The notes below the pieces were generated by a model that ran no database searches, was not told the DNA's origin, and saw nothing but the letters and a program-made list of their open reading frames with translations. The translations under genes and the position numbers were made by a program. Below, piece after piece: positions 16,428-55,396 of a stretch of DNA of 64,000 nucleotides. Each line of letters opens with the position of its first letter. Positions within the stretch are counted from its first letter, which is position 1. This stretch comes from an uncultured Allomuricauda sp. GTDB taxonomy: Bacteria > Bacteroidota > Bacteroidia > Flavobacteriales > Flavobacteriaceae. The DNA is taken from the NCBI RefSeq assembly GCF_937884665.1, contig NZ_CAKZYF010000055.1, forward strand, positions 1-64,000, written 5' to 3'.

Positions 16428-17447
<1,020 letters not shown>

Positions 17448-17829
17448 TGGTGATTGCTTTTTCAGCGGATAAAGGTAGCAAATTGTCCTTGAAAACTTAA
17501 GGGATAGGATAATGTAGAAAAAGTACGTTAAAGAGGGACCAAAGTAAGCTAAGGCTCATTTGAACGAAGCTCTAATTCAGGTCGACACTATCAGTAAAAA
17601 AAGTAATTCCAAAAATGATAAACGCAAAAATTACTCTAGAATAATGCGTGGTATTCTTGAGATAAAACAGAGTAAAATAAGCAGAATTATCGAGGCTGGG
17701 TCAAGGTTATAGCTTATGAAAATCCCGAATGATTTTCAGCAATGGCACTAAAAAAGTCAATGTTTTTCAGTTCCTACATGCTCCATCAACCGGTTCAAGA
17801 ACTGTTCTGACCTTTGGTCGGATTTTAGG

Positions 17830-17951
17830 GGCACTGAAAATGTCCCCAACGCCTTGGCCGAAAATCAATTTGGCGAAAACCCGGAATCAACGCAACCTAA
17901 AATCGTGGCGAAGGGATATTGTTCCCTAGAGGTTTTCCGTACCTGTTGGAG
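17830..17951 (-). pseudogene. beta-carbonic anhydrase remnant
   Basis: minus strand reads LQQVRKTSREQYPFATILGCVDSGFSP then, after a frameshift, KLIFGQGVGDIFSA; in-frame TAG just upstream, no intact ORF. Confidence 0.8.
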
Positions 17952-17986
17952 CTACTCCTTTTCCGTTTGCTTTTTTTACGAAACCT

Positions 17987-19660
17987 TTATTGCCCTCCTT
18001 CAGAAGTTCCCATGCTTAATTTGGAGTCGGTGCCACTTGTGCCTCTGTCGTCCATGTTATCATCGCTTGGAAGATTTTTGCTTAATTTGAAAAATTGGAT
18101 ATAGCTCTCAGGATTATCCACCACTCCTCGCTCAGAAATTAACTTGATGTTGATGTTTTTATTTCTGGCTTTTTCTGAAAAATCATCTAAAATTTCAATA
18201 ATGTCGTTGTCCAAATAGCGCGTTTTTCTCACGTCCAGTTCAAGTTGCGAGTTTTCAGGCAAACTATCGAGTTCTTTTAATATGGCCCCTTTATTGAAAA
18301 AAGTTACTTCTTCGGCCAGGGTCATCTTAATTTTATGAGCTCCATTGCTTCTATCCTCAATATGAAGGAAATGTGAGTTTTGATAGCTTTTGATCAAAAT
18401 GACCACAATCCCGACGCCAAGTCCTAGTCCAATGCCCACAAGTAAATCTGTAAAAACAATTCCCAATACCGTAACAATAAACGGGACGAATTGTTTCCAT
18501 CCTAAATTGAACATGGTTTTAAAAAGTTTGGGCTTGGCCAATTTATATCCCACAATAAAAAGAATGGCCGCCAAGACCGAAAGAGGTATCATATTTAGGA
18601 GTCGCGGGATAAGAATTACGGATATAAGCAAGAAAAAACCATGTATTATCGCCGATGCCTTGGTTCTTCCTCCAGATTGAATATTAGCGGAACTTCTAAC
18701 GATTACCTGAGTAACGGGCAATCCTCCCAAAAACCCAGAAACGGTATTCCCAATACCCTGTGCCATTAATTCCTTGTTGGTCGGGGTGGTCCTTTTGTAA
18801 GGATCTAACTTGTCCGTAGCTTCAACGCAAAGCAAGGTTTCCAGGCTGGCGACCAAGGCTATGGTGAACGCTGTTATCCAGACCTGTGTATTCCCAATTA
18901 CCGAGAAATTGGGAAAACTGAGCAAATTCCCCATAGTTTCAATACTTTCTGGTACGGGCACCTTTACTAAATGTTCTTCGGTAATGCCCCAGGTACTGTT
19001 GCCCTGGGTGAATACAAAATAAATGATACCAAGTATTACCGCTACCAAGGGACCTTGAACCAGTTTAAAAAACTTCCCCTTTTCTGACAGCACATTATTC
19101 CACAATATTAAAATAATCATGGCCACTATGGCAATTACGGTTGCGCCATTGCTAAAATTACCGCTGATAATCCCACTTATGGTATTAAAAATCTCTGTAA
19201 AGGTATTTTCGCCATCTATTTGAAAAAATGCAAAATCTCCTTCGGGATCTTTGTCATATCCAAAAAAATAAGGAATCTGTTTCAAGATGATGATGATACC
19301 TATTCCGGTCAACATTCCTTTTATTACCGAGGATGGAAAGTAATACGCAATAACGCCCGCTTTCAATATGCTGAAAAGAATTTGGATGAGCCCACCCAAA
19401 ACGACGGCTACTAGGAAATTTTCAAAACCGCCCAGCGTCCCGATGGCGGTCAGGACAATAGCCGCGAGACCCGCCGCCGGGCCACTAACCCCTATATGGG
19501 AACCGCTCAGCGAACCAACGAGGATTCCGCCGACGATTCCTGCAATCAGTCCGGAAAATAGGGGAGCACCGCTGGCAAGGGCTATTCCTAAACACAAGGG
19601 CAATGCCACAAAGAACACAACTATACTCGCAGGAAGGTCATTTTTGATATACTTGAACAT
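17987..19660 (-). CDS. SulP family inorganic anion (bicarbonate/sulfate) transporter with STAS domain
   Basis: ORF 557 aa; DLPASIVVFFVALPLCLGIALASGAPLFSGLIAGIVGG; C-terminal STAS-like LELDVRKTRYLDNDIIEILDDF. Confidence 0.93.
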   Translation of the reverse strand: MFKYIKNDLPASIVVFFVALPLCLGIALASGAPLFSGLIAGIVGGILVGSLSGSHIGVSGPAAGLAAIVLTAIGTLGGFENFLVAVVLGGLIQILFSILKAGVIAYYFPSSVIKGMLTGIGIIIILKQIPYFFGYDKDPEGDFAFFQIDGENTFTEIFNTISGIISGNFSNGATVIAIVAMIILILWNNVLSEKGKFFKLVQGPLVAVILGIIYFVFTQGNSTWGITEEHLVKVPVPESIETMGNLLSFPNFSVIGNTQVWITAFTIALVASLETLLCVEATDKLDPYKRTTPTNKELMAQGIGNTVSGFLGGLPVTQVIVRSSANIQSGGRTKASAIIHGFFLLISVILIPRLLNMIPLSVLAAILFIVGYKLAKPKLFKTMFNLGWKQFVPFIVTVLGIVFTDLLVGIGLGLGVGIVVILIKSYQNSHFLHIEDRSNGAHKIKMTLAEEVTFFNKGAILKELDSLPENSQLELDVRKTRYLDNDIIEILDDFSEKARNKNINIKLISERGVVDNPESYIQFFKLSKNLPSDDNMDDRGTSGTDSKLSMGTSEGGQ

Positions 19661-53845: not shown

Positions 53846-55396
53846 ATGGCGGCAATGAAAAAATACCTGAATCTTTTCGACTTTTCACAAAAAGTAAACT
53901 ATCGCACGGAGGTTTTATCCGGGATTACCGTGGCCCTGGCCCTCGTACCCGAAGCAATTGCCTTTGCCTTTATTGCAGGCTTATCTCCTTTAACAGGTCT
54001 TTATGCAGCTTTTGTGATGGGTTTGGTAACCTCAATTTTAGGTGGCAGACCTGGCATGATTTCTGGGGCTACGGGAGCCGTCGCAGTGGTTATTGTCAGT
54101 CTTGCTAAGGACTATGGTGTGGAATATGTTTTCGCTGCTGTCATCTTGGCCGGCATGCTACAGGTTGCCGCAGGTTTTCTTCGCATGGGAAAACTTATGC
54201 GATTGGTACCGCACCCGGTCATTTTCGGTTTTGTGAACGGTTTGGCCATTATCATATTCATGTCGCAACTGGATCAGTTTAAAACCCAAGATGGGAGCTG
54301 GCTGAGCGGAGGCACTCTCTACATTTTTATGGGATTGGTCCTATTGACCATGTCAGTCATCTGGGGACTGCCCAAATTAAGTAAGGTCGTTCCCGCTTCG
54401 CTCGTGGCCATACTTTTAGTGTTTGGACTTGTGTTTTTCTTCAATGTGGAAACCAGAACAATAGGGGATATCGCATCCATCCAGGGAGGGTTTCCTCCAT
54501 TTCATATCCCGGACGTACCCTTTACGTTAAAAACACTCCAAATCATTTTTCCCTATGCCGCTATCGTTGCAGGTGTTGGACTAATTGAAAGCTTACTGAC
54601 TTTGAACATTGTGGATGAAATTACGGAAACACGAGGTAGGGGAAATAAGGAAGCCGTGGCCCAAGGGACCGCCAACATCCTTTCCGGATTGTTTTCGGGG
54701 ATGGGGGGTTGCGCGATGATAGGTCAAAGCCTTATCAATACTTCCAATGGGGCCAGGGCCAGATTATCCGGCATTGTAGCTTCGTTAATGTTGTTGGCTT
54801 TTGTGATGTTTGGTTCTGATCTTATCGAAAAAGTGCCTATGGCTGCCTTAACGGGACTGATGATCATGGTCGCATTGGGAACCTTCGAATGGGCCAGTCT
54901 CCGTGTTTTTAAACGTATGCCCAAGTCCGATGTTCTGGTCATGGTATTGGTCACTTTGGTGACCGTATTCCTTCACAATTTGGCGCTTGCCGTTTTGGTG
55001 GGGGTTATTATCTCGGCACTGGTCTTTGCCTGGGACAACGCCATTCGGATTCGGGCAAGAAAATATGTGGACGGATCCGGTATCAAACACTACGAGATAT
55101 ATGGACCCTTGTTCTTTGGTAGCACTACCCTATTTTCCGAAAAATTCGATGTGTTGAACGACCCTTCAGAGGTGGTCATCGACTTTGAAGAAAGTAGGGT
55201 CGTGGACATGTCTGCAATTGAAGCGGTCAATAAAATCACGGAACGGTACAAAAAGGTGGGCAAAAAAGTCCATTTAAAACATTTAAGTCGAGATTGTAGG
55301 CGTTTGTTGAAAAACGCAGATGATATCATCGAGGTCAATGTAATCGAAGACCCGACCTATAAGGTCGCTGTTGATAAAATTTGGCCGTACAAATAA
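53846..55396 (+). CDS. SulP family inorganic anion transporter with STAS domain
   Basis: EVLSGITVALALVPEAIAFAFIAGLSPLTGLYAAFVMGLVTSILGGRPGMISGATGA; STAS VIDFEESRVVDMSAIEAVNKI. Confidence 0.95.
   Translation: MAAMKKYLNLFDFSQKVNYRTEVLSGITVALALVPEAIAFAFIAGLSPLTGLYAAFVMGLVTSILGGRPGMISGATGAVAVVIVSLAKDYGVEYVFAAVILAGMLQVAAGFLRMGKLMRLVPHPVIFGFVNGLAIIIFMSQLDQFKTQDGSWLSGGTLYIFMGLVLLTMSVIWGLPKLSKVVPASLVAILLVFGLVFFFNVETRTIGDIASIQGGFPPFHIPDVPFTLKTLQIIFPYAAIVAGVGLIESLLTLNIVDEITETRGRGNKEAVAQGTANILSGLFSGMGGCAMIGQSLINTSNGARARLSGIVASLMLLAFVMFGSDLIEKVPMAALTGLMIMVALGTFEWASLRVFKRMPKSDVLVMVLVTLVTVFLHNLALAVLVGVIISALVFAWDNAIRIRARKYVDGSGIKHYEIYGPLFFGSTTLFSEKFDVLNDPSEVVIDFEESRVVDMSAIEAVNKITERYKKVGKKVHLKHLSRDCRRLLKNADDIIEVNVIEDPTYKVAVDKIWPYK

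Follow-up and report, generated by a model that had tools for sequence, protein, structure and literature searches.

What has become of the beta-type carbonic anhydrase (CA) gene whose fragments lie beside an intact SulP-family transporter gene in an uncultured Allomuricauda sp., and what could have allowed its loss? The DNA analysed (hereafter, the window) is a stretch of 64,000 nucleotides representing contig C55 of a draft genome of 4.2 Mb that is assigned to the Flagellimonas/Allomuricauda genus and consists of 216 contigs (96.9% complete, with 4.2% estimated contamination). Its nearest relatives are Flagellimonas meridianipacifica DSM 25027 (G022) and the uncultured Allomuricauda isolate 29 (G068). 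In both, the block reads SulP1, beta-CA (208 aa), SulP2 (619 aa) and pheS, and SulP1 overlaps the CA gene by 14 coding bases (17 counting the stop codon). In the window the same flanking genes are found in the same order, with SulP1 92-93% and pheS 91% identical to those of the relatives, but the CA is broken and SulP2 is absent, so that the intact SulP1 is followed by CA relics (18063 to about 17729, minus strand) and then by pheS (Table 1). An intact beta-CA adjoins SulP1 in all 29 loci read in the closest congeners, and among 80 Flavobacteriaceae-type SulP1 loci from named genomes, 75 have an intact CA downstream. Among the five exceptions, two end mid-CA at a contig edge, one has a SulP1-SulP2 interval without CA on a contig that stops shortly after, and two have no CA in the DNA examined, one of them being a short contig. 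We consider it almost certain that the locus is a pseudogene of a SulP-linked cytoplasmic beta-CA, which would have decayed together with SulP2 under selection relaxed by redundancy.

Table 1. Features of the SulP1-pheS interval, in window coordinates
Feature	Position	Strand	Basis or location
SulP1, 557-aa SulP-family anion transporter, intact	17987..19660	-	PF00916, E=4.6e-60
beta-CA relic, former codons 1-79	17830..18063	-	nucleotide alignment and orthologue profile
Lesion: TAA	18018-18016	-	codons 1-79 part
Lesion: 2-base deletion	near 17977	-	codons 1-79 part
Lesion: TAG	17954-17952	-	codons 1-79 part
Lesion: 1-base deletion	near 17882	-	codons 1-79 part
Lesion: in-frame deletion of ~162 bp, about codons 80-133	between 17830 and 17829	-	
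Weaker beta-CA remnant, former codons ~135-167	17729..17829	-	profile, 8.1 bits; 60% nucleotide identity
Lesion: TGA	17769-17767	-	downstream remnant
Lesion: 1-base gap	within 17729..17829	-	downstream remnant
AT-rich DNA (~210 bases) at the former site of SulP2 and of the CA 3' end	17515..17728		
pheS, downstream edge of the deletion	16428..17447	-	91% identical to G022/G068 pheS; synteny

Both fragments quoted in a preliminary description of this DNA are found on the minus strand, LQQVRKTSREQYPFATILGCVDSGFSP in one frame and KLIFGQGVGDIFSA in another, and the in-frame TAG and the frameshift mentioned there are among the lesions of Table 1 (the latter being the 1-base deletion near 17882). 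The first part of the gene had been overlooked because it lies inside the SulP1 open reading frame (ORF), where the former CA start is the ATG at 18063. Read frame by frame, the relic gives MITWTTEAQVAPTPN, a stop and AWELLKEGNKGFVKK, then LQQVRKTSREQYPFATILGCVDS and finally RVFAKLIFGQGVGDIFSA, and its 5' part (MITWTTEAQVAPTPN, stop, AWELLKEGNKGFVKK) corresponds to MITQTKETQAALTPNAAWELLKEGNKRFVEKK. Directly after 17830, the remnant KIRPKVRTVLEPVDGACRN continues in the same frame up to a stop, covering codons ~135 to 154-160, and KNIDFFSAIAENH, in a different frame, covers codons 155-167. Altogether, three nonsense codons, three small gaps that shift the frame and two or more larger losses can be counted in the relic, which lacks the ~208-codon ORF of a working beta-CA.

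The His and Cys zinc ligands (HxxC; GHTSCGA in orthologues) have gone with deleted codons ~80-133, which accounts for the missing C-terminal zinc motif that had been noted before. Programmed frameshifting was considered as a means of rescuing the CA and is ruled out by the deletion of these ligands. Of the CxDxR motif (zinc Cys and Asp-Arg dyad), Cys and Asp can still be read together, and Arg appears only after a shift of frame, owing to a 1-base deletion between them. A Gly had been proposed to replace the Arg of the catalytic dyad; the 1-base deletion beside the Arg codon is probably the better explanation, as the shifted frame reads R-V-F-A-K-L-I-F, versus R-V-S-A-E-L-I-F.

The assignment to the SulP-linked CA is supported at several levels. 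Former codons 1-79 (18063 to 17830) share 76% nucleotide identity with G068 and 72% with G022, and their alignment with G068 contains two gaps only (of 2 and 1 bases). Against a profile made from 62 CA orthologues, the whole relic region scores 43.3 bits, compared with 4.9 for the best of 500 dinucleotide shuffles, and the joined fragment matches beta-CAs in the PDB (E about 4e-4). The evidence is weaker for the downstream remnant alone, which scores 8.1 bits against 7.8 for the best shuffle (0 of 500 as good). The generic Pfam model PF00484, suggested earlier as a check, stays below threshold on the short fragments, whereas the orthologue profile and the PDB matches do reveal the family. Standard annotation can consequently miss such a relic, its start being hidden in the extended SulP1 ORF and the rest being invisible to Pfam. 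Taken with the collinear alignment to the SulP-CA locus of close relatives, where the CA is intact, the 43-bit match and the congener loci bear out the original view that a decayed beta-CA stands beside SulP.

As the relic and its lesions are known from a single assembly, it must be asked whether the assembly simply collapsed or mis-joined a normal CA-SulP2 block; the fragmentation and estimated contamination of this draft genome make such errors conceivable. Between the relic and G068, differences affect 17% of first, 15% of second and 40% of third codon positions. The corresponding values for SulP1 in the same genome pair are 9%, 2% and 54%, and those for codons 1-79 of the intact CA, compared between G068 and G022, are 4%, 1% and 44%. 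Differences at second positions are thus enriched in the relic (12/79 vs 13/537 in SulP1; Fisher p about 1e-5). Codon constraint has been lost in the relic and kept in SulP1, which makes sequencing error very unlikely. Additionally, there are at least six separate lesions together with scattered first- and second-position substitutions, beyond what one misjoin would produce; SulP1 and pheS are intact on either side, with the expected identity and synteny; and neither an intact SulP-linked CA nor SulP2 was found on any other contig. That the nearest genomes, and the gene order, are identical for the two flanks speaks against a chimeric contig. We therefore give very little credence to an assembly or sequencing error. 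With an intact syntenic orthologue in relatives, no intact copy of its own in the genome and loss of coding constraint, the locus has the properties of a unitary pseudogene. The third positions of the relic differ no more than those of SulP1, which suggests that the CA was probably constrained along much of the branch and died afterwards.

The loss was not restricted to the CA. A search of the genome's own contigs found no SulP2 orthologue; the best match, which could have represented a relocated copy, consists of two pieces of a 569-aa frame that share 46-56% identity with SulP2, and was rejected as an orthologue. No similarity to CA or SulP2 was detected in the AT-rich DNA that occupies the deletion site, and the profile search found no SulP2 remnants in 17448-17725 (131 of 500 shuffles were as good). 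Elsewhere in the genus, this DNA has short AT-rich matches only, and the last ~75 bases before pheS match the region upstream of this gene in the relatives.

SulP1, a member of the SulP family whose closest solved structure is 6ki1 (its best match in the PDB), is a putative bicarbonate transporter of the BicA type. SulP-family transporters have been linked with CAs (Felce and Saier 2004, as cited in PMC10219603). In G022 and G068 the protein ends at residue 539, and its stop codon sits within the CA gene. In the window, this ancestral stop has become sense codons, so that the ORF extends for ~18 codons up to a TAA at 17989-17987. The resulting C-terminal tail, DRGTSGTDSKLSMGTSEGGQ (17987-18045), is out of frame with the former CA. 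As an otherwise conserved transporter now reads into the relic, it could be imagined that the overprinted tail, or the leftover DNA, acts as a functional element. We find this highly improbable, as the tail arises from the loss of a stop codon, is missing from G022 and G068 and is known from a single genome. Separately, the window contains a second intact SulP-family transporter of another subfamily (516 aa, 53846-55396), with no beta-CA beside it.

The preliminary description proposed that the lineage had lost its anhydrase and kept the transporter. This holds insofar as the CA is dead and SulP1 is intact, but SulP2 was lost too and other CAs remain, as the recommended search of the rest of the genome revealed. 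The SulP-linked CA is the sole PF00484 gene in most of 73 genomes of the genus. Here, PF00484 is represented in the genome by a single gene, located on contig C1 and not of the SulP-linked type, which encodes a protein of 261 aa with a lipoprotein-type signal (PS51257 pattern) that is predicted to be exported. Adjoining it there is a gene for an LCIB-type CA (PF18599; 160 bits vs a curated cut-off of 25), whose product aligns with PtLCIB4 (5b5y) and 6kfs across the Cys/His/Cys motifs and is, on this basis, a candidate CA. A second LCIB-type gene (C1:25403-26113) is 60% identical to the first, and a gamma-CA-like protein of 170 aa is encoded on contig C137. Neither the LCIB genes nor the gamma-CA-like gene is disrupted, and none of them has a lipoprotein signal. 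No alpha-CA match above cut-off was found in the genome, and the DabA system for bicarbonate uptake is absent from the four genomes searched, this one included. The exported beta-CA and the first LCIB gene belong to a cluster (C1 2838-17246) that also contains a second succinate dehydrogenase/fumarate reductase-like set and Usp-like and V-type ATPase-like genes, identified from translations, with a Pfam scan for the iron-sulphur subunit only. The syntenic counterpart of this cluster in G022 has no beta-CA. Its LCIB gene is 87% identical, so that the LCIB gene probably predates the loss of the SulP-linked CA.

These observations can be arranged in a scheme in which compensation by the other CAs and the order of events are both inferred. 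In the relatives, SulP1 (likely taking up HCO3-), the overlapping CA (which would maintain the cytoplasmic CO2/HCO3- balance) and SulP2 form one block. The presence of the LCIB-type, gamma-like and exported beta-CAs would have relaxed selection on it. The CA would then have acquired nonsense and frameshift mutations and, through the ~162-bp deletion, lost its His and Cys zinc ligands; a bigger loss would have claimed SulP2 in its entirety along with the 3' end of the CA. SulP1 remained under selection, and mutation of its stop codon inside the CA would have given rise to the short out-of-frame tail. Compensation is, however, opposed by the fact that G022 has two LCIB genes and yet an intact SulP-linked CA. 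Alternatively, the lineage might live at high CO2 and have dispensed with a cytoplasmic beta-CA altogether, the other CAs being no substitutes for it. The loss of CAs in high-CO2 niches has been argued for Proteobacteria (PMC3364446), and the succinate dehydrogenase/fumarate reductase-like set and V-type ATPase-like genes of the C1 cluster could suit a low-oxygen, CO2-rich niche. Nevertheless, a predicted cytoplasmic CA activity may persist through the LCIB and gamma-CA-like genes, and we regard this alternative as rather unlikely, retaining decay under redundancy as the preferred reading.

CA pseudogenes at conserved loci have already been described in other bacteria. For instance, CA genes that are frameshifted or absent from their conserved locus are known in Proteobacteria such as Bartonella quintana and Actinobacillus pleuropneumoniae JL03, and Helicobacter felis retains a CA at another locus (PMC3364446). 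These cases resemble the window in that a conserved position is occupied by an intact CA in related strains and by a remnant, or by no CA, in the strain concerned, and H. felis also has a CA elsewhere; by contrast, the CA of the window was paired with SulP, one SulP was lost with it and the remaining CAs include LCIB-type proteins. Similarly, CAII is defective in Brucella ovis and B. abortus (PMC6126018), so that in this genus, too, a CA has been inactivated by mutation in some lineages, although a CO2-dependent phenotype was shown there and the relic of the window is known from sequence alone. The locus described here is a well-resolved example of the death of a CA gene, from a genus whose members usually have the SulP-linked beta-CA as their sole beta-CA, and a possible replacement by LCIB-type proteins is its only mildly novel angle.

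LCIB-type CAs are mainly known from algae and are rare in Flavobacteriaceae, and the relic points to a possible swap of one CA class for another. It is conceivable from the sequences, if somewhat doubtful, that the LCIB-type CAs took over the housekeeping role of the SulP-linked beta-CA and let the latter die. In the family, 5 of 251 sampled genomes (about 2%) contain PF18599; in the genus, 10 of 73 genomes encode a relative of the LCIB protein. The housekeeping beta-CA is missing in three of 14 LCIB genomes with PF00484 data (G056, G244 and the genome under study, G000), compared with one of 82 genomes without LCIB (G062, which is 71% complete). The association (Fisher p 0.009, or 0.018 without two doubtful genomes) is a lead and not a result, since the test was post hoc, counted G000 in and did not control for relatedness, with only 19 of the genomes without LCIB coming from outside the genus. 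The status of G056 (94% complete assembly) is doubtful: its contig C159 begins part-way through SulP2, and neither SulP1 nor a SulP-linked CA was found in the assembly, but with a contig break at the locus a loss and an assembly gap look alike. G244, which belongs to another genus of the same family and is 99% complete, has an LCIB-type CA and no PF00484 beta-CA, and is the sole such case among the 23 family genomes searched outside the genus.
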